From Haliotis asinina (lineage: Eukaryota > Mollusca > Gastropoda > Lepetellida > Haliotidae), in the NCBI RefSeq assembly GCF_037392515.1, contig NC_090295.1, forward strand, positions 25,212,501-25,276,500: a stretch of DNA of 64,000 nucleotides, written 5' to 3'. Of this stretch, positions 1,479 to 34,505 are shown piece after piece. Below the pieces are notes generated by a model. That model did no database searches. It was not told where the DNA came from and worked only from the letters and a program-made list of their open reading frames with translations. The position numbers were made by a program, and so were the translations under genes. Positions within the stretch are counted from its first letter, which is position 1, and each line of letters opens with the position of its first letter.

Positions 1479-4400
1479 CTGTTACAGATTATCAAATATG
1501 TTAGAACAAAGTAACACATTGTTATCAATCTTAGATGTGAAAACAATGTACACAGACATAGGCAGAGTCATTCTAAAAATGGCATGCATTGGGGAGCGTA
1601 ATTGTTTATAGAAGCATCCAAACTGTATGGCCCACCTACTCTGGTTCACAACTGTACTTTAACCTGATGGAGGATCACAATCATTAACAAAGTCTCCAAT
1701 GTAAACAGCTATTTGTTTGCAGAATGTGCTTGTAATAAACAATTGTCTCAATAACACTACTAAATCAAACATTTCGAGACAGAAGAAGAGACTAGAATCT
1801 GTCAGGTGAAGAAGAGACTAGAATCTGTCTCGAAACATTGTGACCTTGTATAATAAAGAAGTGGAACCATAAAGCACTTTTAGTTTGATTCCTCCAACTT
1901 CTAAATGACTTTGAAACAACTAACTCTACTAAATGCCAAGACATTGTGCTGATATCTAACCTCTGTTTTGAGTCTGGGTGCACAGCGTTGATCTCGTCCA
2001 GCAAGGCATGCATCTGACAGTCATGCTCCGCATCATTTGTCGACTGACCAAGCCTGGCGACAGAAACATATGTGACGGGTCAATCATGCTGCAGTGACCA
2101 CAGGAAATACAGGCAAACTGTCATGCAAATGTCTGTGTGTCCTGAGGTGAATGTATTCAGCAGGAATCCAACTAAACACATAGGTCAGAACATGGCAAAT
2201 ACTGGTTCTCTTTACAAGCTGGAGAGAACAGAGCACAGAAACGTGTATTTGGTGTACTGTTGAGAGAAGTAGGTTAGATACAGGTGGGCATAGCAATCAG
2301 CAGTGGCACAAAGAAGGGCAAACAAAGCATCTAATCAGTGTCTATCATTAGGTCTCTCAGACAAAGACTATGTGACTACTACCTGAGTGTCAATCTCTGA
2401 GTCAAATTCTGTGGGAACTGAGAGTCAGTCTCTCAGACAATGGCTATGGGACACCTTCTTGGGCGACAGGGGCTGGGGGTACCTACTTGGGTGCCAGTCT
2501 CTCTGTGACGGAGGCTATTGATGAAACGAAGGAGGTAAGCTGGGCAGTGATGACCTTCAGGTGTTTTGTCTCCTGCTGCAGTCTCACAACATCCTGGCAC
2601 TGAGCTGTAGTTAGAGAAGAGGGAGATGGCAACAAGTGCATGTTTGATAACTCTTCAGGATAACTGCAGCAGAAAGACATTAAATAAAAGACCTTAAAAT
2701 CAGGTTTTGTTAGAATTATTAAAATCTAAATATTTTAGATATTTAAATACTTACCTTACCATAGGTCTTATGCATATTACCTCTAGCTTCGCTAAACGAG
2801 ATCAGACAGTCGTTGATTCGCCATCCCCTCGATGGCTACCTCATGTAATCTACGAATGTAGTCACGGAAGTGACGTGATCTCTCCACTCGCGCGAGAGCG
2901 CAGAATCCAAAATTCACTTTTACCGTCAACCGGAAGGTCCGAAGAGTCCAAAGTGGGGAGGAGCATCCAGCGTTGGGAGGGAGTCACCGCCCTATGGTAA
3001 GGTAAGTATTTAAATATCTAAAATATTTAGATTTTAATAAATTTTTAACTTACCTTACCATAGGTCTTATGCATATGGCTTCGACAGATGGATGGTGGTG
3101 TGGACTCCAGAGGACCATCCCTCAGCAAACAGTGCACATGCATCAGGAGAACTCGGGAAAGCCAATGTCAACGGTCTCAGGATAATACCTGGAACAGGAC
3201 AAAGAGCAACCCAATAGAACTCCAAAGAAAAACCGACGCACCCTGGGGGTGAGGTTAATCTTAAGACCAAAGGTAAGTAGAAGTGTAGTTACCTAATGGG
3301 CGGATGGTCGGGTAAGTTGCTGAGCAACCACCAATGGACCAAATGACTGTAATCCCTCCACGTCTTCAACTGCCAAGTCCCTCAAGTAGTGGGATGCGAA
3401 GACAGTTGATGACCTCCAGAAACAGCCCTCCATGATCTGCGGTACTGTGCAGTTCCGATGGAGGGCCATCGTAGACGCCAAGGCCCTGATCTCGTGCGGG
3501 TTACTTGCTACCGGATGAGGCAGGTGCTTGTCGTCATAGGCCGCCAGGATAGTCGATCTGAGCCAGAGGGCAACAGTATTTCTGTTTACTTCACCTTTGC
3601 AGGACACGGCAAAGGGAATGAATAACCTTTTGCGGGATCGTCTCCTAGAGGCTGACCTTTTAATATAGCATCTGAGAGCCCTGACTGGACATAGCAGCTC
3701 CTCCTCCAAGTCATGATGACCCAAGATCGTAGACAAAGGAGGGATGGAGAATAACCTGTTAGGCTGCCCGGGAAGCTGGTTCTTAGCCACAAAATCCCAA
3801 AGCAAACCCAAATGAGCACGTCCGTGTCTTGACTGTTCAAATCGGATCTGAGTAACGTCAAGAGCATGGATCTCGCTGACTCTAGCCGCTGTTGCCAATG
3901 ATAGTAAGAAAACCGTCTTCTTGGAAAGATGTTCAAAGGAGGCTTCTTCTAATGGCTCGTACGGCGGCCCTCTGAGATGTTGAAGGACAACATTAAGATC
4001 CCAAGCTGGAGGACGAAACTTGGTCTTCTGGTCTTCCAGCTTGAAAGCTTTGAGAAGCGCAATAAGTTCCGGTATCTTGGAGATCTGTGAATCTGACTTG
4101 ATAGCAAGGACAGAATTCAAAGCTGACAAATAGGTGCCTAAGGTACTGCCTTTGAGATGTCTAGAGTTCCGTAGGTAGAGAAGGAACTGTGCCACAAACT
4201 GAGGAGATGCTGCCATGGGATCTTGAGATCTTCGTGCGCAAAAATTCTCAAAAGAGCGCCATTTGTCGTCATATAAAGAACGGGTAGAAACTCTATGCGC
4301 GCGAGCTATAACGTTCGCCACGTGCGCAGAGTAGCCCTTAGCCTTTAATGCTCTCTGCAGATGACCCATGCGTGAAGATGGAATCGCCGTGGATCCGGAT

Positions 4401-7400
4401 GCAGCTGTCGACTGTGTGGATGTCGAAGCAGATGCAACCACTCTGGAAGTTTGTAAGGGTCTCCGCTGGCGAGCCGTCGAAGATCGGGAAACCACGATCT
4501 GGCTGGCCACCAAGGTGCGACCAAAAGCAGTCGGAGGTTCTGCGTCAGTCTGATCTTGGCGATTACATCCGAGAGAAGAATTGGAGGAGGGAACGCATAT
4601 GCGTCCAGTCCTTCCCATGATAGAGACATCGCGTCGACTGCCCACGCCTGTGGATCCGGCACGGGAGATACGTACGTTGGTAACTGGTGATTGAAACTGG
4701 TGGCAAAAAGATCTACCAGTGGTCTCCCGAGTTGCCAGCAAATCTGGCGAAATGCGTCCGGATGAAGCATCCACTCCGTCGGGGATGGTTTGCCGGGGCG
4801 CGACAGGGCATCTGCCAGAATGTTTTTGCAGCCGGGAATGTGACGAGCCGCGATCACGATGCCGTTGCTGTCTACCAGATCCGCTAACAGGAACATCTGG
4901 TCCAGAAGTTGTTTGGACCTGGTTGTACCCTGATTGTGAATCACCCACACGACCGTGGAATTGTCGGACGCTACCAGGAGTCTGGAGTCTGTTAGGACCG
5001 GTAGCCAGTGGCGAACCGCTAGGATGACTGCTTGCATCTCCAGGCTGTTGATATGCCACTCCTTTTCGGCGTCTGACCACAGCCCTGAGGTTGTCTGGCC
5101 GTTCAAATGAGCACCCCATCCCAAGAGGGATGCGTCTACAAACAATTCGTGGTCGTGGTTGAAGTTTGTCAAACAAACACCGGCGCAGACGTTCCACTCT
5201 ACCGTCCACCACCTGAGGTACTGATGCAGGTGCGGGGGTAGAAGAAATGACGACTGGAGGTCGTTCTCTCGAATGAATGGTAATAGGAACCTCTGTAGTG
5301 GGCGCAGCATAAGCCGTCCTCTGAGGGTGAGGTCCTGCGCCGACGTCAACAAGCCCAACAGAGACTGCCATTCTCTGAGGGTGAGAGGTAGGGACAGAGC
5401 TCGATCCGTAAAGGCGAGAATCTTCTGCCATCGATCGGGAGGGACCCTGACTAGATTGAGCCGAGTCAGGAACAACCCCCCAATGAACGTTAACTCCTGC
5501 GTTGGTTTCAGTTGCGACTTCTCGAAATTGATAATCCATCCCAACTGTTGAAGTAGGCGTGTGGAGAAGTCCAGTTGTTTGCGTAGCAACTGAGGATTGC
5601 AGTGATTTAGAAAACAATCGTCGATGTAAGGATCGAAGTCTATCCCCCGGAGGTGCAGAAACCGGGTGACAGGCAGTGTGACCCGAGTGAAAAGCCACGG
5701 GGCCGTAGAAATTCCAAACGGCAGCACTCGCCACTGGTAGTGTACTCCGTTGAATATGAAACGCAGGAACTTCCTGTGGCGTGGGAATACAGGAACGTGC
5801 AGGTAAGCATCCTGTAAATCTAGGCTGGCCATCCAAGCTCCGGGTGACAATTTGGCTCGGATCTGATCCAGTGATGTCATTCGGAAATGCGGGGGCTCGG
5901 CTAAATACAGGTTGTTGAAAGTCGCCATGTTGTGAATCATCCGCATTTTGGTGGAACCTTTCTTGGGTATCAGGAAGATGGGTGAATAGAACCCCGGGGA
6001 GAGATGGGGTTCTGACACTATCTCTATAGCATGTTTTGTTAATAAAATGTTGATGTTTTCTAGGATAAGTACCTGTTGATCTATTGAGTACCCTCGTGAC
6101 AGGGGAGTGGTAGTCAACGGCGGAGCTCTGGCTAGTGGTAGCTTGTAGCCGGCTCTCAGGATCTTGCAAACAAACGGGTCTTCCAGGAATGTCCAGTTGG
6201 CCCAGAAGATCCCTAGTCTCCCACCTACAGGGGTCGGATGAACTGGTACGACTGGGGGTGGGAGGTCCCAGTCGTAGTAGTCCATGGCTTCAGCGGCCGG
6301 AGTAGGGACGCTTGCCCCTACCTCGACCGGACGTAGCTGGGGCATCCCTGCCACGTTCTTGAGGCTTGCGCTGGACATCTGAGTCTTTGGTACGACCTCG
6401 TCCCCTCCCAAACGAGGAACGGATCGACTCTCTCCTGGGTACATATCTTTTCTTGGCATTACCCCTGGCTCGGCCACGAAATGCAGAGCCCAAGGCCTCG
6501 AAAGTTGACAGCGCCACTTCCGTGTTAGTAAGTTCGGCATGTTGTTTATACACCGACGGTATCTTTTCATCAAAGAGGAACTTAGACGTAAATGGTGCAC
6601 GAAGAAGTTGACGTTTAAATTCCTCTTGCCAAGAACAAGCATCTAAAAATCCAGATCGGCGCATAGTAGTAGTCATGGCTAGCGCCGCACGTAAGTGTCC
6701 AAGTAGGTCATGGAGTACTCTGCCTTGCCAAGCAAAAATGGTAGTTAAATGATCCACCCTCGAGGCATTATCCTCTGACAAATCCAAGGCTGCAGCGGAG
6801 GTGGCTGACGCAAGCGCCGAGATAGGTTTAAGCATACGTTTCAGTTCAGTATCAACAGCTGCTAACTTTGAATCCTGAACTCTGTAAGATGACGGAGTTG
6901 AACTTGACAACCTCTTAATTGAATCGTCTAGCGCCGCCCCGTTGTCGGCAAAATCCAGACTGTGCACTTTATAATCTGATTTCTTAGACTTCGACGCTTT
7001 GATGGTCGGATTTAAGGATAACTTCGCAAAGTCCGAGTCTAACAAAGTAATCGCATCCGCCACCATAGGGTGTGGTGGAATAAGTAACTCAGGAGTCAAG
7101 TGAATCGACGCCGGGTTGTTTGAATCCGAAGAAGGGGAAGGACAGTCCGGTAATCTGTCGGCAATCCACTCAAAGACAGCAGTTAAGGGAAGATAGGTGC
7201 CATCACTATCACCAACATTGCCAGGTTCCTCCTCATAGTCTGGGCAAAAGAACTGTTCCTCGTGTTCCTCCCAGGAAATAGAGGTTGATTCTCGTCGCTG
7301 ACTCGAGTTGGAAGCAGAGTTCTTAGTGTTAAATTCTTTGCCGGAAGTCCGCAGTGGTTCCGGCGATCGCGAACGCTGGGATCTAGAGAGACGTCGTGGT

Positions 7401-10400
7401 GATCTTGACCGAGATCGCACTCTACGTCTACTTCTGGTACGTGAGTCTTCCTCTAAGGAGCGCCTTGGAGAGCGGGAAACCGACCGGGAGCGCCGGCGCC
7501 TGCTACGGTGTGGAGAACGAGAGCGCCGACCCTTCGGGGACCTAGAACAAGATCTGCGCCGGGAGCGCTCAGCCTCTAAACGACGAGCGCGCTCTTCATC
7601 CAGCTGGCGCTGTAACATTTCTTCTTTAGTCAGCGTATGAGACACTCTGGGGATCCGATAAGACGTAGTTATAGGAGCAGGGTCCGGCAACAATATTGGC
7701 GCTGGCGTTGGTACAGGCGCTGGCGTCGGAATAGGCGCTGGCGTCGGAATAAGCGCTGACGAAAACACCGGTGCTGATGTAAACAAAGGCGCCGGGACAG
7801 GCAGTGGCGCCGGGACAGGCAGAGGCGCTGGTACAGGCAACGGCGCTGGCGTAAGTCTAGGCGCTGTCGTTGGTAAAGGTGTAGATACCGAGGTAGGGAG
7901 TACAGCAGCGCCCGGCGTCAAGAGAGATCGCAGAAGCCTCTGAACTTCAGGATGGGATAAGGCATCCGGGTGAGATAAATCTACAAAGGCGTCCGAACGC
8001 GTAGGCTCTGGAGAGGAGCGCGCCGGCGTAATAGATGAGCGCTCCACACTCGGCGTTGATAGTGGTATTGAAGGCGGTGGTAGATCTTGGTCGTCAGGTA
8101 AGGATCCCAAGGAAGACGCTGGCGACGACATTCTTCTCTTACGTTGCGTAAAACGTTTCCTCCGAACCGCCAAAAAGGTCTTGAAATCGGTGAGAGATAA
8201 CGCTTGACAGTGTAGGCACCGACTATCGATGGAACAAACAGCGGACGCACAATCCGGACACCAGGGATGTGGGTCCTTGGCTGATTTCTGCCCCTTGCAG
8301 ACAGTACAATAGTGTCGAGTCATACACAGAACTGTAACAGACAAGAAACCACGACTTGACGACATGTTAATACAATACTAGGAGGAAAACCCCCTACATA
8401 AAAATGTAGAAAGTAGTTGCACCCCTACGTAAAAAATAGGCACACCCGTAAGTGCGGGGCAGCGAAAAATAACAACCACAATGGCTGCCTTCGCTACGCT
8501 GAAATTCATGGCAGAAAAAAGTATGCTAAATACCGAAAACACAAGTGAAAATGACCAAGCATGGGCAGAAACATGACGGGCAAACCACCAACAAGATGAA
8601 CTACCCTCATGGACGCCATGTCGTTCTCACCTCCGACATGGCCAAGCCAAGCCTGAGTGAGAAAAGAACAACACGAGGTAGCAAGGTAAGCACATTAAAT
8701 GCTTGTATGACTTGACTTTGATACATAATGAGGGGATACAAACCATACCTACCAAGGAGTAGCAACTTTATTGAAACTACACACAGTAGGAAAAAAAACT
8801 GCAAACCAACACGTCCGTTCGCACGAACGCTAAAGGTAAAAGTGAATTTTGGATTCTGCGCTCTCGCGCGAGTGGAGAGATCACGTCACTTCCGTGACTA
8901 CATTCGTAGATTACATGAGGTAGCCATCGAGGGGATGGCGAATCAACGACTGTCTGATCTCGTTTAGCGAAGCTAGAGGTAATATGCATAAGACCTATGG
9001 TAAGGTAAGTTAAAAATTTATACTTCCAAGAGTATACTATAAAAAAACATTTGTATATCCTGAGATACCGATACTGTCAGATACAAAGACATGTTGATAG
9101 GTCACTGGACAGAGCCAGGCATATGGTCTGAAGGTACAGAATATTGTCTTCAGCCTAAGATGGCCTTCACGTTTTCTCACTTACCCTGATACAGTTCTTG
9201 TTCATTAGCGATTCGTTGCACACTCTCTTCCCAATGCTAGAAAAAAAACACTTCCAAAGTAAGGCACATTTACTACATCTTATCAACACCACTAATACCA
9301 TACAACATAATGTAATTTTTTTAGATAAAATTGATATTTCATCCTTATCCTGACTCATGCTTATTATGCTTATCTCCTTTTTCTATGTGAATGATAGTGG
9401 AATAATTAAATCCCTTGCAGATCCCTTGAAGAAGACATACAAGAATTCAATTGTTCCACTATCATTTGCATAGAAGAGTGAGTGAGTTTAGTTTTACGCC
9501 GCACTCAGCAATATTCCAGCTATATGGCGGTGGTCTGTAAATAATCAAGTCTGGACCACACAATCCAGTGATCAGCAACATGAGCATTGACCTGCGCAAT
9601 TGGGAACCGATGACATGCGTCAACCAAGTCAGCGAGCCTGACCACCCGATCCCGTTAGCCGCCTCTTACGACAAGCTGAGTCGCCTTTCATGGCAAGCAT
9701 GGGTTGCTGAATGCCTATTCTACCCCAGGACCTTCACGGGTCTTGCATAGAAGAAGGAGATAAGCAAAATAAGCATGAACCAACTCTGATGTTATTAGTG
9801 CACATTAGAGTGTTTGTACTACAGACATGATAGTACCTGCTCCTGGCTGTAACTGAAGGAGGAGGAGGGGAGAAGTACAAGACAAGTTGTTACATTGTGT
9901 CAAGGTAAATATAGGGTTTTATCAGTCCCAAGTAAGGTTGTATTCCCTGAGCTGGACAGTTCCAAATAAGAATACAATCTTATGAGGGACTGATAAAACT
10001 GCAAATTTCCCGAGACACAATGTGATGTTTTTACTACATCAAAAGAACACATTGAATTGACTTGGTTTTTGCTTCAATTTCATCCTCAGTTGTGGCAAAC
10101 CGTTTCCTTGCTGTAATGTTGACACCAGCCGATCGATTGACCTCAATGCAGGGAACATCACTAAGACTTGGCAATGAACGCTTTTCACACTTTGTGTGGT
10201 CACCGAGGCATGGCAGGATGATTTGACTTTTGTACTCCCTGCTCATGGATAATAACAGGTGTACCTCGCATTTTATCAGAATGCTTTCATGTGAACCAAT
10301 CAATACTCGATATTCTTACATAAGACTGGATAACATCTATCACACATGTAGGGAGTGCTATAACTCTACTACAGATGTGGAAGTACTATATCTGTAGCAG

Positions 10401-16400: not shown

Positions 16401-18275
16401 GGCACTATTACAACTATATGGCGGTGGTCTGTAAATAATCGAGTCTGGACCAGATAATACAGTGATCAACCGCATGAGCATCGATCTGCACAATGCACAA
16501 TTGGGAACCGATGACATGTGTCAACCAAGTCAGCGAGCCTGACCACCCGATCCCGTTAGTTGCCTCTTACACCTAGCATAGTTGCCTTTTATGGCAAGCA
16601 TGGGTTGCTGAAGGCCTATTCTACCTCGGGACATTCACGGGTAGACAAGGGAGGGGGGGAGGGGGAATACTTACATCCTCATGTCTCTGAAGCAGTTGAT
16701 GCACAGCATGATTTTCTTCTCTGTGGAGAACATGATGTATGGTTCCTTGTGTAGGGCTGAAACAACACAGCTAGAGCTGAACCACAAGACTACCTACATT
16801 CCCCCATACAACCATCGGTAATTCAGGAATTTCCTCGGCAGCCTTGGTCCAAACACACAGCAAATATCTTGGCACAAATTAATTTAGTAAGAGAGTGAGT
16901 AAGTAGGGTTTCACAGCCCATGTCATCAGTGTAAATAGCAAATTCAGCAGAGGAGTCAACTGCTTCTGGTACAAACATAGTTTAATACAAGCAGGGAGTA
17001 TTGAGAAAAAAAATCAACAAAAACAACCTAAGATACTTAAGGGAGGTTGATCTAATATCTAAGAATGGCAGCAAATAACTGAACATAGAGTTGCACATAT
17101 TCAAGTTACTTACAACAACGTTTGTGTATTTCCTTTGTTCTCTTGGATAACACAACAATGTCATGTGCAGCAAACATCTTGGCACGGTGGGTCTCATCTC
17201 TACAGCTGGTACACAGGGGTTGGCAGCAGGTGTTGCAGAAATACATGGGGTTGCAGTCCTGCAGTCAACACAACAGTTGCCTCATGGTATAATCAGTGAG
17301 TGAGTGAGTGGGTGGGTGGGTGAGTGAGTCAGTTTAGTTTTATGCCACTCTCAGCAATATTCCAGCTATATGGGGGTGGTCTGTAAATAATCAAGTCTGG
17401 ACCAGACAACTGTGTGATCAACAACATAAGCATCGATCTGCAATATTGGGAACTGATGAAGTGTCAACCAAATCAAGCGAGTTTGACCACCTGATCCCAT
17501 TAGTCATCCCTATGACAAGTATGGGTTACTGACAATTCCAACATCGATCTTTGTGGGTTGTGTGATGGTACAGAAATACATGGGTTCACTTGGGGTTAAT
17601 GTGTGGAAATATTTACACTGGAAGTAAAGTTAAGTTAAAAAATTTACAGAGAGCAATTATGAATAATACACACTTTATCACAGTTGGCACATGAAGCTTT
17701 TTCGTCAAGGGAAGATTCAACCATGAACTTCAGCAAGGGATCAGGGGGAGGTAATGAGTTTCCTTCCTTCAAGTGTGTGGTTGCCCTGTAATAGAGCATT
17801 TAGCCATCCATCATATTTTTGTTTTTCACTTAAATCAAATATGTTAATGGTAGTATTATTATTACTGAAGATTAAAGTATTACTCATTAAATAAATGTTA
17901 AAAGATATCTGAAGCAGATTTTAAGCATAACAATACTTTTTCAATTGATCGTCAATTATGTAATTACAAATCAACATGAAGGAGCAATATTTCCTCTAAA
18001 TATTGTGATGATTATGAATTCAGAAAGACCAAAAAGATATTCAGTGAAAGATTGCTGGAAATCTCATATTTATGTGTAACTGACCCACAAAGAGGACACA
18101 GCATCTGCGCATCTGCTGCTCGACCCCGCAAGCAGCGCATACAGAAGCTGTGGAAGCATGACAGTATACAGGGGTCATCGTATTGTTCATTGCACAGGTA
18201 GCATAGCAATGGGTTCCTCTTGGCCACATCGGTATCTTCAAGACTTTCCATTGGTTGGAAGATTTCCCCAGACAT
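1211..18275 (-). CDS. RNF207: RNF207 (RING finger protein 207), complete 15-exon gene
   Basis: Complete minus-strand gene encoding 667 residues; human RNF207 is about 634. Coding exons (transcript order): 18275-18085, 17785-17674, 17258-17114, 16756-16675, 15673-15598, 14475-14303, 14186-14045, 13543-13443, 11486-11388, 11087-10922, 10728-10543, 9236-9185, 2604-2487, 2053-1961, 1478-1211. Every junction is AG/GT and the phase holds throughout. Seen: a RING with ligands C25, C28, C40, H42, C45, C48, C60, C63; a B-box with C96, C99, C109, C112, C117, C120, H125, H133; a second Cys/His cluster; then long helical segments and a charged tail. Known: vertebrate RNF207 is a membrane-associated, heart-enriched RING protein that affects HERG potassium-channel abundance and QT interval. 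A ubiquitin-ligase role here is inferred from the RING. The start ATG sits in ACCATGT; no canonical AATAAA was found below 1211. The remaining doubt is exact exon edges, not identity. Confidence 0.95.
1769..1852. repeat. Short tandem duplication inside an inverted repeat
   Basis: GAAGAAGAGACTAGAATCTG occurs twice in tandem. The pair is flanked by inverted copies of a CATTTCGAGACAG-like motif (CTGTCTCGAAACATT at the right). It lies in RNF207 intron 14 and may be a small foldback element. Confidence 0.5.
1961..2053 (-). CDS. RNF207: RNF207 exon 14
   Basis: Acceptor GCCAG/G and donor CAGAG/GTTAGA. It encodes LGQSTNDAEHDCQMHALLDE then INAVHPDSKQR. Similarity to vertebrates is weak in this C-terminal part. 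The call rests on splice sites, phase continuity and an open frame on both sides. Confidence 0.82.
2487..2604 (-). CDS. RNF207: RNF207 exon 13
   Basis: Acceptor CTACAG/CT and donor CCAA/GTAGGT. It encodes AQCQDVVRLQQETKHLKVIT then AQLTSFVSSIASVTERLAPK, matching vertebrate AQLHDLLQLRQENAYLTTIT and the SIAKVKERLEP stretch. It joins exon 12 across the retroelement-bearing intron in correct phase. Confidence 0.94.
2749..2924 (-). repeat. DIRS inverted terminal repeat, 3' side
   Basis: Inverted, identical partner of 8835-9010. Its outer extension 2716-2748 is AT-rich and unlike the other end, the usual unequal-ended terminal repeat of DIRS1-type elements. Confidence 0.93.
2991..3076 (-). repeat. 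DIRS internal complementary region
   Basis: 2991-3040 is the reverse complement of 2716-2765, and 3037-3076 is the reverse complement of about 8982-9021. Together they make a template complementary to the joined outer ends, as in the known DIRS replication model. Confidence 0.9.
3293..6169 (-). CDS. DIRS tyrosine recombinase (958 aa frame; domain in last ~350 aa)
   Basis: The C-terminal part is a tyrosine recombinase with the R...HxxR...Y signature: Arg in AARVSEIHAL (about residue 763), HEIR (about 892-895) and the nucleophile Tyr in SHYLRDL (about 928). It begins with a SAM-like core-binding domain around KWRSFENFCARR. The first 600 or so codons run antiparallel in meaning but in the same direction through the RT region in another frame and have no recognisable domain. 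The functional start may therefore be well inside. The enzyme should integrate the circular DNA copy. Confidence 0.9.
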   Translation of the reverse strand: MQDPESRLQATTSQSSAVDYHSPVTRVLNRSTGTYPRKHQHFINKTCYRDSVRTPSLPGVLFTHLPDTQERFHQNADDSQHGDFQQPVFSRAPAFPNDITGSDPSQIVTRSLDGQPRFTGCLPARSCIPTPQEVPAFHIQRSTLPVASAAVWNFYGPVAFHSGHTACHPVSAPPGDRLRSLHRRLFSKSLQSSVATQTTGLLHTPTSTVGMDYQFREVATETNAGVNVHWGVVPDSAQSSQGPSRSMAEDSRLYGSSSVPTSHPQRMAVSVGLVDVGAGPHPQRTAYAAPTTEVPITIHSRERPPVVISSTPAPASVPQVVDGRVERLRRCLFDKLQPRPRIVCRRIPLGMGCSFERPDNLRAVVRRRKGVAYQQPGDASSHPSGSPLATGPNRLQTPGSVRQFHGRVGDSQSGYNQVQTTSGPDVPVSGSGRQQRHRDRGSSHSRLQKHSGRCPVAPRQTIPDGVDASSGRISPDLLATRETTGRSFCHQFQSPVTNVRISRAGSTGVGSRRDVSIMGRTGRICVPSSNSSLGCNRQDQTDAEPPTAFGRTLVASQIVVSRSSTARQRRPLQTSRVVASASTSTQSTAASGSTAIPSSRMGHLQRALKAKGYSAHVANVIARAHRVSTRSLYDDKWRSFENFCARRSQDPMAASPQFVAQFLLYLRNSRHLKGSTLGTYLSALNSVLAIKSDSQISKIPELIALLKAFKLEDQKTKFRPPAWDLNVVLQHLRGPPYEPLEEASFEHLSKKTVFLLSLATAARVSEIHALDVTQIRFEQSRHGRAHLGLLWDFVAKNQLPGQPNRLFSIPPLSTILGHHDLEEELLCPVRALRCYIKRSASRRRSRKRLFIPFAVSCKGEVNRNTVALWLRSTILAAYDDKHLPHPVASNPHEIRALASTMALHRNCTVPQIMEGCFWRSSTVFASHYLRDLAVEDVEGLQSFGPLVVAQQLTRPSAH
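4345..6642 (-). CDS. DIRS reverse transcriptase / RNase H (765 aa frame)
   Basis: Contains reverse-transcriptase blocks FYSPIFLIPKKG, MASLDLQDAYLHVPV, LPFGISTAPWLFT and the active-site motif YIDD, followed by RNase H blocks (LFVDASLLGWGAHL, LEMQAVILAV, ASDNSTVVW) and ILADALSRP. The RT type groups with Ty3/DIRS-like enzymes. The frame overlaps the gag frame upstream and the recombinase frame downstream; DIRS elements are known to use extensively overlapping frames. The true start is uncertain, and the first 120 or so residues overlap gag. Confidence 0.9.
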   Translation of the reverse strand: MLVLGKRNLNVNFFVHHLRLSSSLMKRYRRCINNMPNLLTRKWRCQLSRPWALHFVAEPGVMPRKDMYPGESRSVPRLGGDEVVPKTQMSSASLKNVAGMPQLRPVEVGASVPTPAAEAMDYYDWDLPPPVVPVHPTPVGGRLGIFWANWTFLEDPFVCKILRAGYKLPLARAPPLTTTPLSRGYSIDQQVLILENINILLTKHAIEIVSEPHLSPGFYSPIFLIPKKGSTKMRMIHNMATFNNLYLAEPPHFRMTSLDQIRAKLSPGAWMASLDLQDAYLHVPVFPRHRKFLRFIFNGVHYQWRVLPFGISTAPWLFTRVTLPVTRFLHLRGIDFDPYIDDCFLNHCNPQLLRKQLDFSTRLLQQLGWIINFEKSQLKPTQELTFIGGLFLTRLNLVRVPPDRWQKILAFTDRALSLPLTLREWQSLLGLLTSAQDLTLRGRLMLRPLQRFLLPFIRENDLQSSFLLPPHLHQYLRWWTVEWNVCAGVCLTNFNHDHELFVDASLLGWGAHLNGQTTSGLWSDAEKEWHINSLEMQAVILAVRHWLPVLTDSRLLVASDNSTVVWVIHNQGTTRSKQLLDQMFLLADLVDSNGIVIAARHIPGCKNILADALSRPGKPSPTEWMLHPDAFRQICWQLGRPLVDLFATSFNHQLPTYVSPVPDPQAWAVDAMSLSWEGLDAYAFPPPILLSDVIAKIRLTQNLRLLLVAPWWPARSWFPDLRRLASGDPYKLPEWLHLLRHPHSRQLHPDPRRFHLHAWVICREH
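6290..8365 (-). CDS. DIRS gag-like protein (691 aa)
   Basis: First frame of the element. The N-terminus has a cluster of CxxC pairs (residues about 14-53), common in DIRS gag proteins. A Pro/Ala/Thr repeat zone follows (PVPAPL repeated, about 165-220), then an Arg/Ser-rich SR-type stretch (about 265-335) and a C-terminal Gly/Arg (RGRG) zone. It is probably the nucleic-acid-binding structural protein. The RT frame overlaps its 3' end by about 350 bp. Assignment is by position and composition; gag sequences diverge quickly. Confidence 0.8.
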   Translation of the reverse strand: MSSSRGFLSVTVLCMTRHYCTVCKGQKSAKDPHPWCPDCASAVCSIDSRCLHCQALSLTDFKTFLAVRRKRFTQRKRRMSSPASSLGSLPDDQDLPPPSIPLSTPSVERSSITPARSSPEPTRSDAFVDLSHPDALSHPEVQRLLRSLLTPGAAVLPTSVSTPLPTTAPRLTPAPLPVPAPLPVPAPLPVPAPLFTSAPVFSSALIPTPAPIPTPAPVPTPAPILLPDPAPITTSYRIPRVSHTLTKEEMLQRQLDEERARRLEAERSRRRSCSRSPKGRRSRSPHRSRRRRSRSVSRSPRRSLEEDSRTRSRRRVRSRSRSPRRLSRSQRSRSPEPLRTSGKEFNTKNSASNSSQRRESTSISWEEHEEQFFCPDYEEEPGNVGDSDGTYLPLTAVFEWIADRLPDCPSPSSDSNNPASIHLTPELLIPPHPMVADAITLLDSDFAKLSLNPTIKASKSKKSDYKVHSLDFADNGAALDDSIKRLSSSTPSSYRVQDSKLAAVDTELKRMLKPISALASATSAAALDLSEDNASRVDHLTTIFAWQGRVLHDLLGHLRAALAMTTTMRRSGFLDACSWQEEFKRQLLRAPFTSKFLFDEKIPSVYKQHAELTNTEVALSTFEALGSAFRGRARGNAKKRYVPRRESIRSSFGRGRGRTKDSDVQRKPQERGRDAPATSGRGRGKRPYSGR
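8835..9010 (-). repeat. DIRS inverted terminal repeat, 5' side
   Basis: Identical in inverted orientation to 2749-2924. The outer 11 bp (9011-9021) differ from the other terminus and are instead matched by the internal complementary region. Confidence 0.93.
9185..9236 (-). CDS. RNF207: RNF207 exon 12 (small, 52 bp)
   Basis: Acceptor TTTCTAG/CAT after a pyrimidine run, donor CAGG/GTAAGT. It encodes HWEESVQRIANEQELYQ, matching vertebrate IWEEAYQRVANEQEIYE. The next intron (9184-2605) is 6.6 kb, mostly because of the DIRS element. Confidence 0.93.
9355..9778. mobile_element. Foldback MITE (about 147 bp) split by a SINE-like insertion
   Basis: 9355-9410 and the segments 9441-9476 plus 9754-9778 form long inverted arms (TCATGCTTATTATGCTTATC against its complement). 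Removing the SINE-like copy and one target duplication leaves a compact hairpin of about 147 bp. It lies in RNF207 intron 11. Confidence 0.75.
9477..9742 (-). mobile_element. SINE-like abalone repeat, copy A (266 bp)
   Basis: Flanked by an 11-bp direct repeat TTGCATAGAAG (9466-9476 and 9743-9753). Read on the minus strand it starts ACCCGTGAAGGTCC and ends in GCGGCGTAAAACTAAACTCA with an ACTC-type tail. Target duplications of this length indicate LINE-type mobilisation. Confidence 0.85.
9892..10023. mobile_element. Foldback MITE (132 bp hairpin)
   Basis: Arms of about 55 bp: ACATTGTGTC...GGTTTTATCAGTCCC...GTATTC on the left, and the complement on the right through GGGACTGATAAAACTG to GACACAATGT. 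It is nearly palindromic over its whole length and lies in RNF207 intron 11. Confidence 0.8.
10340..10530. repeat. Degenerate tandem repeat, unit about 35-45 bp
   Basis: Repeated variants of CTCTACTACAGATGTGG with TATGATAT/TATGTTAT spacers, four or five diverged units, just beyond the exon 11 donor of RNF207. Confidence 0.55.
10543..10728 (-). CDS. RNF207: RNF207 exon 11: coiled coil
   Basis: Acceptor TTAAG/GAT and donor AAG/GTACAT. It encodes KLEKLKSQVQELQRDLTLRR and on through VIDSVESQLEKHHGYIEEKQ, aligning with vertebrate EMQSLKDQVQELHRDLTKHH. This is a clear amphipathic coiled-coil segment. Confidence 0.92.
10922..11087 (-). CDS. RNF207: RNF207 exon 10 with a tandem acceptor
   Basis: It encodes a Pro/Ser/Gly-rich linker and then KGVFAEHCVEFETSHR, matching vertebrate ENTPFAEHCRHYEDSYR. 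The acceptor is a NAGNAG pair (ACAGCAG/G). Either AG keeps frame, starting the exon at 11087 or 11084 and adding or dropping one serine. The donor is AGG/GTAGGT, phase 0. Confidence 0.9.
11388..11486 (-). CDS. RNF207: RNF207 exon 9
   Basis: Acceptor TTACAG/G and donor TCAG/GTAGGT. With the two bases from exon 8 it reads KSLEPLLYDGRGKVLSSSPA, matching vertebrate RCLEPLLLLGPRR. The correct frame is not the longest open frame here, so the exon is easily missed. Confidence 0.88.
11990..13230 (-). mobile_element. Possible broken retroelement gag remnant, family unsure
   Basis: A 1.2-kb GC-richer block in RNF207 intron 8 with fragmentary minus-strand frames in several phases. One fragment is Arg/Gly/Lys-rich (GRGRTRSYYAKGKSKEE), reminiscent of the tail of DIRS gag proteins. 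It is broken in many places and no RT or recombinase is near it. It could equally be another decayed repeat; I do not recognise it. Confidence 0.25.
13443..13543 (-). CDS. RNF207: RNF207 exon 8
   Basis: Acceptor GTACAG/GAC and donor CAA/GTGAGT. The peptide DMMERLKSIVHRQHPLHP then TQGSQIDTDFKNKFAK matches vertebrate ELMERLQGIV and the IASDHRAEFAR region. Ends in phase 2, joined by exon 9. Confidence 0.92.
14045..14186 (-). CDS. RNF207: RNF207 exon 7
   Basis: Acceptor TTACAG/C and donor TAT/GTGAGT. It encodes QYKAKESSFKAQLTSLTTLL, then PTIHVHLVTSAAF and ANKFEFLDMSY. This matches vertebrate QYEEKDKAFKEQLSHLATLL, then PTLQVHLV and ANKAEFLDLGY. Ends in phase 0. Confidence 0.94.
14303..14475 (-). 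CDS. RNF207: RNF207 exon 6: predicted helical region
   Basis: Acceptor TTTGCAG/GCT and donor ACAG/GTGAGA. It encodes AVRDLQNSVKDGILLLRALL and on through SMQEKIKVTMETLLEEAN, aligning with vertebrate AVKALQTATREAIALLQAMV and the SMQDRL region. The composition is heptad-like, as expected for the coiled-coil part of an RBCC-type protein. Confidence 0.93.
14544..15154. mobile_element. pogo/Tigger-like non-autonomous DNA transposon (611 bp)
   Basis: Terminal inverted repeats CAGTCGAACCCCGTTTATCC at the left and a near-complement (GAGTAAACGGGGTTCGACTG) at the right, bounded by TA on both sides, the pogo/Tc1-mariner target duplication. CAGT-start termini of this type are typical of pogo/Tigger elements. 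The interior repeats TCCGG-containing terminal-like motifs (near 15030-15060 and 15110) but encodes no transposase. It lies in RNF207 intron 5. Confidence 0.8.
15414..15572 (-). mobile_element. tRNA-derived SINE, diverged copy
   Basis: On the minus strand it has a pol III box B (GGTTCGATTCTCC) followed by the shared body TGTGTGAAGCCCATTTCTGG and a decayed TATTGCTGGA...tail. Imperfect direct repeats CAGTTGATAG (15404-15413) and CAGCTGATAG (15573-15582) flank it. Confidence 0.75.
15598..15673 (-). CDS. RNF207: RNF207 exon 5
   Basis: Acceptor TCCCAG/C and donor GCAG/GTAGCT. It encodes ESRTHCVDLETAYNQSC followed by RKLEQSVQ, matching vertebrate ESRAHCVDLESAYVQGC. A tRNA-derived SINE lies in the intron about 15 bp beyond the donor; it is not exonic. 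Confidence 0.94.
15753..16233. mobile_element. TIR element (481 bp) with promoter/first-exon-like cargo
   Basis: Inverted repeats of about 60 bp: TCTTCCCACAGAGGTTACTC...TCTAATACCGCC at 15753-15812 and its complement ending at 16233 (CAGGAGTAAACTCTGCGGGA). Inside, on the plus strand, are a CCAAT box (15884-15888), a YY1-type AATATGGCGGC over an ATG (15921), a 36-codon frame MAAPIKLVHQRAKERFGISC... ending TAG at 16031, and a strong donor GTAAGT at 16063. No transposase. It lies in RNF207 intron 4, antisense to the host gene. Confidence 0.7.
16366..16643 (-). mobile_element. SINE-like abalone repeat, copy B
   Basis: Same family as 9477-9742, flanked by a 12-bp direct repeat GACAAGGGAGGG (16354-16365 and 16644-16655). 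The ACTC tail end is at the left, so sense is minus. Confidence 0.85.
16675..16756 (-). CDS. RNF207: RNF207 exon 4: second Cys/His cluster
   Basis: Acceptor TTTCAG/CC and donor GGAT/GTAAGT. The peptide LHKEPYIMFSTEKKIMLC followed by INCFRDMR matches vertebrate LHAEPYLLFSTDKKLLLC and IRCFRDMQ. It lies about 20 bp from the end of a SINE-like copy (16366-16643). Confidence 0.94.
17114..17258 (-). CDS. RNF207: RNF207 exon 3: B-box zinc finger
   Basis: Acceptor CTGCAG/GAC and donor TTGT/GTAAGT. It encodes YFCNTCCQPLCTSCRDETH, nearly the vertebrate YFCNTCGQPLCARCRDETH, supplying the remaining B-box cysteines and histidines. It ends in phase 1. Confidence 0.95.
17293..17560 (-). mobile_element. SINE-like abalone repeat, copy C (older)
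   Basis: Same family but more diverged, with an expanded GTGA/GGTG run at the tail end (17296-17330). No clear target duplication. It lies in RNF207 intron 3. Confidence 0.8.
17674..17785 (-). CDS. RNF207: RNF207 exon 2: linker and start of B-box
   Basis: Acceptor TTACAG/G and donor AAA/GTGTGT. It encodes the linker with LPPPDPLLKFMVESS, matching vertebrate LPPVDRLLQFLVDSS, and the first zinc pair C96/C99 of the B-box. The frame is shorter than a typical ORF-finder cut-off, so it was located by similarity. Confidence 0.93.
18085..18275 (-). CDS. RNF207: RNF207 exon 1: RING finger
   Basis: Starts MSGEIFQPMES, close to the vertebrate N-terminus MSGAIF. It carries the whole C3HC4 RING, with the spacing C-x2-C-x11-C-x-H-x2-C-x2-C-x11-C-x2-C. 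The donor is GG/GTCAGT and the exon ends in phase 2. Reading on past the donor gives a longer frame to 18012 that leaves the family similarity, so it is intron. Confidence 0.95.
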
Positions 18276-18364
18276 GGTTATCACAGTCAGTCTATGTCAT
18301 TGGCTGAAACAACCAAGGAAAACCCGAGGTTGTGGCAACCTCTAACAGAAGGTTTCCTCACAAT
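18276..18364 (-). other. RNF207: RNF207 5' UTR candidate with upstream acceptors
   Basis: On the minus strand a good acceptor TATTTCTTTTCAG precedes 18364, and a second TTGTTTCAG precedes 18303. The first coding exon may thus begin with spliced 5' UTR, implying a separate non-coding first exon upstream. Inference only. Confidence 0.4.
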
Positions 18365-24359: not shown

Positions 24360-26850
24360 GCGACCTTGCACGTGTCTGCGCGAAATTACCCCAGTGTCTC
24401 TCTACATGTCTGTGTGAAACTAACCCCTGTCTTTCTCCACGGGTCTGAGTGAAACCACTCCACTGCCTCTCCATGTGTCAGTGCGAAAATACCTCGGTCT
24501 CTCTCCACGTGTCTGTGATAAACTACCTCCGTGTCTCTCCACGTGCCTGCTCGAAACTACCTCTGTGCCTCTGTGCCTCTCCACGTGTCTATGTGCAACT
24601 ACCCCAGTGCCCCTCCACACGTCTGTGTGAAACTCACCCAATGCTCCTCCACGTGTCTGTGTGAAACTACCCCAGTGCCCCGCAAGGTGGTGTCTTTGTG
24701 AAACTACCTCTGTGTCTCCCCACGTGTCTCTGTGAAACTACCCGTGTCTCTTCACGTGTCGAACTGAAACAAGCCCCGTGTCTCCACGTGTGTAGGGGAA
24801 ACTAACCCAGTGTCTCTCCACGTGCCTTTGCGAAGCTGCCTCTGTGTCTCTCCTCGTGCCTATGTGAAACTAGCCCAGTGCCTCTCCACGTGTCGATGTG
24901 AACCTGTCCGTGTCCCTATACCTATCTGTGTGAATGGACTCCAGTGTCTCTCCACATGTCCATGTGAACCTACCTGCGTGTCTCTCCACCTAACTGTGTG
25001 AAACTACCCCGGCCAGTGTCTCTCCATGTTTCTCTGTGAATCTATTTGAGTATCTCCACCAGTCTGTGCGAATTTATCCATGTCTCTCCGCGTGTCTGTG
25101 CGAAATATCCCAGTTCTCTCCGTGTGTCTGATTGAAACTACTACTGTGCCTCACCAAATGTCTGCATGAAACTACCCCTGTTTCTCACTACGTGTCTGTG
25201 CGAAAGTATAACAATGTGTTTCTCCTCGTGTAACGTGTCTGTGTGAAACTACCCCAGTGTCTTTCTATGTGTTTGTGTGGGTGGTGGGGTTAAAGTGGTT
25301 AAAGCGTGCACTTGTCACGCCGAAGGCCCGGGTTCGATTCCCCACATGGGTATAATGTGTGAAGCCCATTTCTGGTGTCCCCCACCGTGATATTGCTGGA
25401 ATATTGCTAAAAAGCGGCGTAAAACTAAACTCACTCATTCACTCACTTCTACCTGTTTTTGCGAAACTATGTCTGCGTTTCTCCCCGTGTCTGTGTGCGA
25501 AACTACGTATGCGTCTTTCCACGTGTCTGAGTGAAACGACCCCAGTGTCTCCTCTCTGTCTCTCCACCTGTCTGTGTGAAACTATCTCTATATCTCTCCC
25601 GTGTCTGTGTGAAGCGTCGTCTGTGTCTCTCCACTTGTCTATGTGACACTATATATACCTCAGTGTCTCTCCACTTGTCTGTGTAATGCTACCTGTTTGT
25701 CTCTTCCCGTGTCTGTAAACTACGTATACGTCTCTCCACCTGTGTGAAACTACTTGTGTGTCTCTCCGCCTGTCTGTGCGAAACTACGTCTGTCTCTCCC
25801 CGTGTCTGTGTGAAAATACGTCTGTGTCTCACCGCCTGTCTATCTGAAACTACGTCTGTGTGAAACGACCTCTGCTTGTCTCCGTCTGTCTGTGTGAAAC
25901 TACTTGTGTGTCTCTCCCCGTGTCTGTGTGAAACTACCTCTATGTCTCTTCCCGTGTCTGTGTGAAACTACTTCTGTGACTCACCCCCTGTCTATGTGAA
26001 ACTATGTCTTAGTGAAACTACCTCTGCTTGTCTCTGTCTGTGCGAAACTACCTGTATGTCTCTCCCCGTGTCTGTGCGAAACAACGTATGCGTCTCTCCA
26101 CCTGCGTGAAACTACGCCTGTGTCTCACCCTGCGTGTGTGTCTCCATGTGTCTGTGTGAAACTACTTCTGTGTCTCTCCGCCTGTCTGTGCGAAACTACG
26201 TATGCGTCTCTCCACCTGTGTGAAACTACTTCTGTGTCTCTCCCCGTGTTTGTGCGAAAGTAGGTATGCGTCTCTCCACCTGCGTGAAACTACGCCTGTG
26301 TCTCACCCTGCGTGTGTGTCTCCATGTGTCTGTGTGAAACTACTTCTGTGTCTCTCCGCCTGTCTGTGCGAAACTACGTCTGTCTCTCCCCGTGTTTGTG
26401 TGAAAATACGTCTGTGTCTCACCGCCTGTCTATCTGAAACTACGTCTGTGTGAAACGACCTCTGCTTGTCTCCGCCTGTCTGTGTGAAACTACTTGTGTG
26501 TCTCTCCGCCTGTTTGTGCGAAACTACGTCTGTCTCTCCCCGTGTCTGTGTGAAAATACGTCTGTGTCTCACCGCCTGTCTATCTGAAACTACGTCTGTG
26601 TGAAACGACCTCTGCTTGTCTCCGTCTGTCTGTGTGAAACTACTTGTGTGTCTCTCCCCGTGTCTGTGTCTCCATGTGTCAGTGCGAAACTACTTCTGTG
26701 TCTCTACACGTGTGTGTGCGAAATTGCCTCAGTGTCTCTCCACGTGTCTCTGCGAAACTGCCTCAGTGTTTTCTCCCCGTGTCTGTGTGAAACTACCTCT
26801 GCGTGTCTCAATGTGATACTGGATTTATGCCTCACTATGCCTCAGTGTAC
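24360..26850. repeat. Large minisatellite, unit about 34 bp
   Basis: About 2.5 kb of variants of TGTCTCTCCACGTGTCTGTG then TGAAACTACCTC. Spacing is mostly 33-38 bp. The right part has higher-order structure: a 179-bp block starting near 26097 recurs near 26276, and a block with GTCTGTGTCTCACCGCCTGT recurs near 25815, 26410 and 26559. Translation gives repetitive KLCVSLHVC-like peptides in several frames, so open frames here are artefacts. Confidence 0.92.
25280..25448 (+). mobile_element. tRNA-derived SINE inside the 34-bp minisatellite
   Basis: Box A-like TTAAAGCGTGCACTTGTC, box B GGTTCGATTCC, body TGTGAAGCCCATTTCTGGTG, 3' tail ATATTGCTAAAAAGCGGCGT then AAAACTAAACTCACTC. It interrupts the tandem array, so it is younger than that part of the array. 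Confidence 0.85.
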
Positions 26851-31876: not shown

Positions 31877-34505
31877 AGTCATATGAGAATCGTCTTCCTG
31901 GTCATACTGTATACATCTTGTCACAGTAGCATGTGTACAACTCAGTCGTATCATACTCATCTTCTCATATTACCATGTCTACAGCATGACCCTTATTCTC
32001 GAAACGTTCGTAGCCCTAAGTATTCTTTAACTTTGGTCGTAGCCAATGTGTTAAGAATGGACTTAAGAAGTTCGTAGGGCTACGAACGTTTCGAGAATAG
32101 ATAGCCAGGTCATATCATGTTCATCTTATTATATGACATTGCTATAATACAGTCATATTATGTTCATATTCTCGGATGACATTGCTATAATACGGTCATA
32201 TTATGTTCATCTTCTCATATGACATTGCTATAACCCAGTCATATTATGTTCATCTTCTCATATGACATTGCTATAACCCAGTCATATTATGTTCATCTTC
32301 TCATATGACATTGCTATAACCCAGTCATATTATGTTCATCTTCTCATATGACATTGCTATAATACAGTCATATCATGTTCATCTTCTCGTATGACATTAC
32401 GAGTCATATTATGTTCATCTTCTCATATGACATTGCTATAACCCAGTCATATTATGTTCATCTTCTCATATGACATTGCTATAACCCAGTCATATTATGT
32501 TCATCTTCTCGTATGACATTGCTATAATACAGTCATATTATGTTCATCTTCTCGTATGACATTGCTATAACCCAGTCATATCATGTTCATCTGCTCATAT
32601 GACATTGCTATAATACAGTCATATTATGTTCATCTTCTCATATGACATTGCTTTAATACAGTCATATTATGTTCATCTTCTCGTATGACATTGCTATAAC
32701 TGAGTCATATCATGTTCATCTTCTCATATGACATTGCTATAACCCAGTCATATCATGTTCATCTTCTCGTATGACATTGCTATAACCCAGTCATATCATG
32801 TTCATCTTCTTATATGACATTGCTATAACTGAGTCATATCATGTTCATCTTCTCATATGACATTGCTATAACCCAGTCATATCATGTTCATCTTCTCATA
32901 TGACATTGCTATAATACAGTCGTATTATGTTCATCTTCTCGTATGACATTACGAGTCATATTATGTTCATCTTCTTATATGACACTGCTATAATACTGTC
33001 ATATTATGTTCATCTTCTTATATGACACTGCTATAATACTGTCATATTATGTTCATCTTCTTATATGACACTGCTATAATACTGTCATATTATGTTCATC
33101 TTCTCATATGACATTGCTATAATACAGTCATATTATGTTCATATTCTCGGATGACATTGCTATAATACGGTCACATTATGTTCATCTTCTCATATGACAT
33201 TGCTATAATACAGTCATATTGTGTTCATCTTCTCGTATGACATTGCTATAACCCAGTCACATTATGTTCACCTTCTCGTGTGACATTGCTATAACCCAGT
33301 CATATCATGTTAATGTTCTCGTATGACATTGCTATAACCCAGTCATATTATGTTCATCTTCTCGTATGACATTGCTGTAACCTAGTCATATCATGTTCAT
33401 CTTCTCATATGATATTGCTATAATACAGTCATATTATGTTCATCTTCTCATTTTACATTGCTATAACCCAGTCATATCATGTTCATCTTCTCATATGATA
33501 TTGCTATCATACAGTCATATTATGTTCATCTTCTCATATTACACGGGTACAACCCAGGTGTATCCTATTCATCTTCTCACAGTGTCATCTGTAGAACCCG
33601 GTCATATTGTATTCACCTGTTCATTTTGCATTGTATAACGCATATTGTATTCATCTTCTCATTCTACATTGGTAAAACGCAGTCATAGTATATTCATCTT
33701 CTCATTTTACATTGGTATATCCCAGTCATATTACTATTCATCTCTTCATATTACCGTGTGTAGAACCCGGTCATATTATATTCGTCTTTCCGCAGTACCT
33801 TGATAGAACCAAATCATGTTATGTTCATCTTTTCACAGTACCTTGTATAACCCAGCTACGAGCCTGATATTCATCTTTTCGCAGAACCTTGCGATAACCT
33901 AGTCATAATATATTCATTTTCTAACAGTACCTTGGTATGATCCAGTCAAATAACCTTCATCATCTGACGGTACATTTGTATAGCCTAGTCATATATTCAT
34001 CCTCTGACAGTACCATGTGTATAACCCAGTCAGTCATGTCATCTTCTCACAGTACCTTGGTATAACCCAGTCATGTTATATTCATCTTCTGACAGTACCT
34101 TGGTATAACCCAGTCACGTTATACTCATCTTCTCACAGTACCTTGATATAACCCAGTCATGTTATATTCATCTTCTCACACTACCTTGATATAACCCAGT
34201 CATGTTATATTCATCTTCTCACGGTACCTTGATATAACCCAGTTATGTTATATTCATCTTCTCACAGTACCTTGGTATAACCCAGTCATGTTATATTCAT
34301 CTTCTGACAGTACCTTGGTATAACCCAGTCACGTTATACTCATCTTCTCACAGTACCTTGATATAACCCAGTCATGTTATATTCATCTTCTCACACTACC
34401 TTGGTATAACCCAGTCATGTTATATTCATCTTCTCACGGTACCTTGATATAACCCAGTCATGTTATATTCATCTTCTCACGGTACCTTGGTATATCCCAG
34501 TCAAA
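31877..34505. repeat. Large 43-bp minisatellite with two subfamilies
   Basis: About 60 units of 43 bp. Left part (to about 33.5 kb): CATCTTCTCATATGACATTG then CTATAACCCAGTCATATTAT. Right part (about 34.0-34.5 kb): same period but CATCTTCTCACAGTACCTTG then ATATAACCCAGTCATGTTAT. The stretch between (33.5-34.0 kb) is more diverged. The unit is not a multiple of three, so apparent frames are accidental. Confidence 0.95.
31994..32099. mobile_element. Small foldback element with 25-bp perfect arms
   Basis: TATTCTCGAAACGTTCGTAG...CCTA at 31994-32018 is perfectly inverted at 32075-32099, loop about 56 bp. It sits within the left edge of the 43-bp array and appears to have inserted into it. Confidence 0.8.

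Follow-up and report, generated by a model that had tools for sequence, protein, structure and literature searches.

A young DIRS1-like retrotransposon with many relatives in the genome of Haliotis asinina, and its possible integration by single-strand exchange

We identified a DIRS1-like retrotransposon of 6302 bp on the minus strand (2716–9017) of a 64,000-nucleotide window, the whole stretch of DNA analyzed here, from the 1.14 Gb genome of Haliotis asinina. It is almost certainly a young element with open frames, and it belongs to a known type, DIRS1. Dozens of very young insertions carrying the same ends constitute a natural experiment that reveals the exact crossover point and the target motif of a DIRS recombinase. 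These shared-end insertions argue against exchange of both strands and against a required identity of 3 bp between junction and target, and we lean slightly towards integration by single-strand exchange, a route whose cDNA and recombination steps are deduced from sequence. Taken together, a DIRS1-like identity and integration by single-strand exchange form a joint reading that we consider evenly balanced. The same copies also yield a testable idea for the translation of the overlapping recombinase frame.

The initial annotation had proposed a DIRS1 layout between positions 2716 and 9021, and the inverted ends, the internal complementary region (ICR) and the frames were all found as expected for this layout (Table 1). 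The two inverted terminal repeats (ITRs) are complementary at 176/176 positions. The ICR is the exact complement of the joined outer ends, since both pairings are perfect: 2716–2765 with 2991–3040 (50 nt, 100%) and, on the gag side, 8982–9021 with 3037–3076 (40 nt, 100%). The annotation had named a lack of complementarity between ends and internal region as a possible refutation, and the alignments gave 100% complementarity. The gag, RT/RNase H and tyrosine recombinase (YR) frames are all open on the minus strand. The start at 2716 was confirmed, but the end at 9021 had to be moved to 9017: the sequence past the terminal TAAAAAT varies among 20 other whole copies and represents target DNA. These last four nucleotides (TTAT) extend the match to the ICR because targets resemble the junction. 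PAT and Ngaro elements possess split direct repeats (A1-[ORFs]-B1A2B2), in place of which we found inverted ends and an ICR; the direct repeats of the element are a tandem repeat in gag, a 58-nt pair (79%) between the left end and the ICR, and a 27-nt pair (74%). The gag repeat consists of tandem 18-nt units (7680–7890) with PAP-type residues. Whole copies span 6115–6397 bp, a length difference that we do not assign to this repeat.

Table 1. Coordinates of the DIRS1-like element and its parts in the window.
Feature	Position	Strand	Basis
Complete DIRS1-like element (6302 bp), sense to host gene	2716..9017	-	Ends, frames, comparison with other copies
Terminal extension at 3' (YR) end, with no counterpart on the other ITR; starts TTATTAAAATC (window orientation)	2716..2748	-	
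Inverted terminal repeat, YR side	2749..2924	-	Pairs with gag-side ITR
Internal complementary region (ICR)	2991..3076	-	2991–3040 against left end, 3041–3076 against right end
Crossover point within ICR	between 3040 and 3041		
YR frame, 998 codons, in phase with gag behind the TGA; 647 codons overlap pol	3293..6289	-	
Tyrosine recombinase part free of pol overlap (R155, H284-x-x-R287, Y320)	3296..4345	-	
pol frame: RT (YIDD) and RNase H	4345..6642	-	Pfam
gag frame, 695 aa, SR-rich and PAP-repeat segments; ends in TGA at 6290–6292	6290..8377	-	
Inverted terminal repeat, gag side	8835..9010	-	Pairs with YR-side ITR
Constant outer end, gag side: TAAAAAT (window orientation)	9011..9017	-	Constant among copies
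Target-derived TTAT, outside element	9018..9021	.	Sequence here varies among copies

Searching pol with Pfam returned RVT_1 (6.9e-17) and RT_RNaseH (1.2e-7), and the same search of gag returned no family. DIRS elements carry a methyltransferase-like domain in the C-terminal part of pol, after RNase H. The last 202 residues of pol gave no Pfam match at E 10; for comparison, the accessible part of PMC9210276 reports it for 38 Xenopus families. The YR frame matched phage-integrase models below cut-offs only (best E 0.00099). Residues R155, H284-x-x-R287 and Y320, which we take to be the catalytic residues of the tyrosine recombinase family (R...HxxR...Y), are identical in the two subfamilies described below. 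Judged by its sequence, the frame with its sub-threshold integrase models and R...HxxR...Y residues is thus a predicted tyrosine recombinase of the kind that defines the DIRS1-like superfamily. A search of the PDB with YR gave 23 weak matches, 22 casein kinases and one RimM, and no recombinase; an AlphaFold model of YR alone, unaligned, was uninformative (pLDDT 35).

The genome contains hundreds of relatives with the same ends, in line with the search suggested in the initial annotation. A 31-nt end motif (at most one mismatch) gave 644 matches and its reversed control none, and because an intact element contributes two matches, the number of elements is of the order of 300. From a YR search of the genome, 116 copies were scored among 5534 first-look candidates: 70 present 97–100% identity, 6 present 88–95% and 40 present 86%. 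The claim that few such elements are readable from end to end was not supported, as 82 of the 116 scored copies lie in frames of at least 990 codons. The claim of a recent insertion was supported: besides the identical ITRs, the element differs by 0.2% on average from the 20 other whole copies and by 0.13% from the nearest. That it is instead a non-functional relic with ends that only appear intact is very improbable, given this proximity, the open frames and the 70 scored copies with at least 97% identity.

Two subfamilies with open frames, A and B, were distinguished. Subfamily B, represented at full coding length by one copy (L169), has the same ends, an open 998-codon YR frame and 73% DNA identity to A over 5.9 kb. 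Two further copies, L170 and L171 (L163 and L167 in the junction comparison), contain stops in gag and, at E 1e-3, have nothing matching the RT part of pol, yet their ends and ICR agree at every position over 76 nt. The genome has 41 matches to a 1001-base piece of L170, 27 of them at least 98% identical over nearly the whole piece and three identical (L170 itself included), RT content having been checked in L170 and L171 only. RT-less derivatives were most likely amplified as well, moved by autonomous elements.

We compared junctions at 77 insertions: the window copy, 20 whole copies and 56 usable copies out of 60 fetched as end pairs (four, L033/34, L041/42, L091/92 and L123/124, were dropped because the right-end motif was absent from the stretch). 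Ten end-motif pairs on contig C1, outside the YR list, brought the total to 87; all of these elements share one set of ends and represent one system in one genome. Left ends begin with TT[A/G]TTAAA in 77/77 copies (TTATTAAA in 69, TTGTTAAA in 8), right ends carry GTTAAAAAT in 74/77 with three variants, and the ten further copies present the same ends. The constant ends are identical in 85 of the 87 insertions, the two deviating right ends bearing small changes (a point change in L051, one A fewer in the run in L077), and the crossover point is the same in all. Where element and target differ and a position is therefore informative, the element base was retained at -1 (54/55), -2 (29/29), -3 (17/17) and -4 (21/21), and at +1 (14/14), +2 (35/35) and +3 (38/38). 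This was true from -10 to +10 on both sides, except for L077 at -1 and L029 at -7, where a point change coincides with the flank base.

The target motif is A/T-rich (AAWW^WT). Among the 77 copies, the most frequent target bases were A at -4 (56) and -3 (60), A (48) or T (26) at -2, A (46) or T (22) at -1, T (63) or A (13) at +1, T at +2 (42) and A at +3 (39). The joined flanks of four insertions (L009, L010, L015 and L025) align without gaps at the junction to uninserted repeats, showing no target duplication. Together with the YR frame, this is consistent with the recombinase-mediated integration claimed in the initial annotation. Relative to paralogous sites, L013 has 6 extra nucleotides (ATATTA) at its left junction, which are either filler or old repeat variation, and L028 aligns weakly to a paralog, the alignment having gaps of one base at distances of 3 and 6 nt from the junction. 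Among the copies compared, these six were the ones with a usable empty relative, and the joined flanks of the window site match no empty allele in this assembly, which represents one genome. Between individuals, the window insertion may be polymorphic, as proposed in the initial annotation. The window also contains a tRNA-like repeat with a tail (25290–25450), presumably of a type known from abalone genomes; the insertions of L009 and L025 lie in its relatives.

The agreement between ICR and ends extends across the copies. Over 76 nt, 71 of the 77 copies had no mismatch, four had one, one had two and one had three; nine of the ten further copies were free of mismatches, and L153, with an altered ICR, had 21. 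In the 21 whole copies, 0 of 86 ICR positions were mismatched. Two substitutions are common to end and ICR. A G at +3 occurs in eight of the 77 copies, and it is these eight that carry G in the ICR too, a co-variation that counts as one event since the five whole copies with this G are mutual nearest relatives; a separate change at +11 in L167 is matched in its own ICR. Folded as single-stranded DNA, the YR-side end pairs with the ICR (z of -10.9), although complementarity requires this and the folding is not independent proof.

Tyrosine recombinases place their two strand cuts 6–8 nt apart. A two-strand exchange would produce a heteroduplex and then segregate into two crossover classes. No alternative crossover was observed among the 87 copies at any stagger from 1 to 8 nt; with the second cut on the left/right, the number of informative copies was 62/16 at 1 nt, 87/86 at 6 nt and 87/87 at both 7 and 8 nt. 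Single-strand exchange followed by replication predicts exactly one crossover class, which fits the single class observed. We give this route a slight preference and picture it as follows. The element cDNA would be single-stranded, and both of its ends would pair side by side with the ICR, used as a splint, to form a closed, double-stranded junction. The recombinase would cut the joined-ends strand only, since a cut in the ICR strand would break the element, and would exchange it with one strand of the A/T-rich target. Resolution of this single-strand product by replication would leave one sharp boundary common to the insertions. More tentatively, we propose that DIRS retrotransposons as a whole use single-strand exchange, with an ICR that may be both the template and the splint folding the cDNA into a recombination site, a eukaryotic counterpart of integron attC. 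In integron cassette recombination (attC x attI), a tyrosine recombinase exchanges one strand of a folded single strand. The likeness lies in the type of recombinase, the single exchanged strand, the sharp crossover and, by our reconstruction, the folded single-stranded substrate; the systems differ in that the DIRS junction would be splinted by an internal copy of the joined ends and inserted into a genomic target, and we claim no sequence relationship.

The main rival is that the one-sided outcomes could reflect biased repair of double-strand products. The accepted model, as given in the accessible part of Piednoel et al. 2011 (PMC3266345), involves a double-stranded circle whose 3-bp junction recombines with an identical target trinucleotide on both strands; here, its heteroduplex would always have to be resolved alike. 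Our targets do resemble the junction at -4, -3, -2, +1, +2 and +3, TTAT directly follows the right end in 9 of the 77 copies when about 2 are expected, and our count of Table 3 in that paper gives equal start and end trinucleotides in 18 of 28 elements. Among the 10 that differ, the junction equals the start in seven and matches the end in AcasDIRS1, whose extension is on the left only, and the 2-nt junctions of BfDIRS2 and AmDIRS1 do not tell. However, the junction trinucleotide AAT occurs in the target of only 11 of our 87 insertions, which led us to reject 3-bp identity as a strict requirement, and no second crossover class appeared even though 86–87 of the 87 copies were informative at staggers of 6–8 nt. 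The accepted model also needs an unexplained strand bias in repair, and we consider it unlikely to apply here. The failed 3-bp identity is a correction to the integration model and not an exclusion of the element from the DIRS1-like superfamily.

Evidence from other hosts bears on single-strand exchange in both directions. Malicki 2020, to judge by its title, reportedly describes 'linear, single-stranded cDNA intermediates' of Dictyostelium DIRS-1 and may already propose a similar integration route; such intermediates would supply the single-stranded substrate, the host there being an amoeba. Counting against our proposal, the accessible part of a review (PMC5633606) states that circular intermediates of Dictyostelium DIRS-1 have been experimentally verified. 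In the accessible parts of the open-licence literature on DIRS integration, single strands and read-through, we found neither the junction argument nor a gag-YR read-through.

We further analyzed how the recombinase could be translated. In both A and B, gag and the 998-codon YR frame are in phase with one TGA between them, and the TGA context was recovered in 19 of the 21 whole copies with a strict search. Over the 647 pol codons, the YR frame contains no stop in either subfamily, compared to means of 20.4 (A) and 24.2 (B) in 2000 synonymous shuffles of the overlap (minimum 6 and 13). The first Met of the YR frame is at residue 251 in A and 287 in B, suggesting that translation probably enters at the gag stop; 8.4 and 11.5 stops would be expected before this Met and stop-free shuffles were 0/2000. 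General avoidance of stop-forming codon pairs was rejected, because stops occur at about the expected number when the frame offset of the overlap is applied to gag and to the YR-only part (observed/expected: 30/33.6, 25/30.6, 19/20.8 and 18/19.7). With the other offset, A has fewer stops than expected, by about 2 sd (17/22.4 and 7/12.1). We likewise rejected a strong constraint on the amino acids of the overlap: YR identity there is 0.534, relative to 0.521 (sd 0.007) in codon-pair shuffles. Weak constraint would be compatible with the third positions of pol, whose divergence in the overlap (0.40) is below that in gag (0.56) and in YR-only codons (0.58); at fourfold sites, the difference is 0.50 in the overlap relative to 0.65 in YR-only codons (P = 0.03) and 0.54 in gag (P = 0.55).

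These patterns make it somewhat probable that the recombinase is produced by read-through of the gag TGA and then of the pol region in another frame, which would be open but nearly free in its amino acids. The overlap frame would thus need to be passable more than meaningful. The context of the gag TGA is not a known strong read-through signal. Alternatively, the YR frame may be open for another reason, with YR translation relying on an internal start or a spliced mRNA, which we regard as rather improbable. The nearly unconstrained amino acids of the overlap would suit this alternative, as would two Met residues, 641 of A, immediately ahead of the recombinase part, and 287, common to A and B. 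Against it, none of the 20–24 expected stops is present, stops at the same offset in gag and the YR-only part are near their expected number, and in B no Met lies between 287 and 506 or between 506 and 692. As for pol, an ATG lies just past the gag TGA in A but not in B, so a start there was rejected as a conserved device, and the pol frame is open inside gag no more than by chance (33% and 90% of shuffles had 0 stops).

In the accessible part of Piednoel et al. 2011 (PMC3266345), DIRS1-like elements share with ours the ITRs, the one-sided terminal extension (termed 'right extension'), the ICR, the gag, RT-RH and YR frames, a coding strand starting with ATT and the absence of target duplication. 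A long pol-YR overlap is found in half of the 28 elements of that paper, whose accessible part reports none in molluscs. At 6302 bp, our element is just above the longest one (6283), and its 3' trinucleotide is target DNA rather than shared sequence.

The surroundings of the element agree, by sequence, with a RING E3 gene as its likely host: two exon-like stretches flank it on the same strand (2450–2620 and 9160–9260) and a RING exon lies at 18015–18296 on the minus strand. This fits the intron placement made in the initial annotation; we assume that the gene is RNF207, the name given there. The ITR tips and the ICR (2749–2765, 2991–3064 and 8990–9010) bear GGTAAGGTAAGT outward, two tandem splice-donor-like motifs that might be usable by a sense insertion in an intron. 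Elsewhere in the window, positions 32001–34000 present a strong strand asymmetry, with a GC skew of -0.27.
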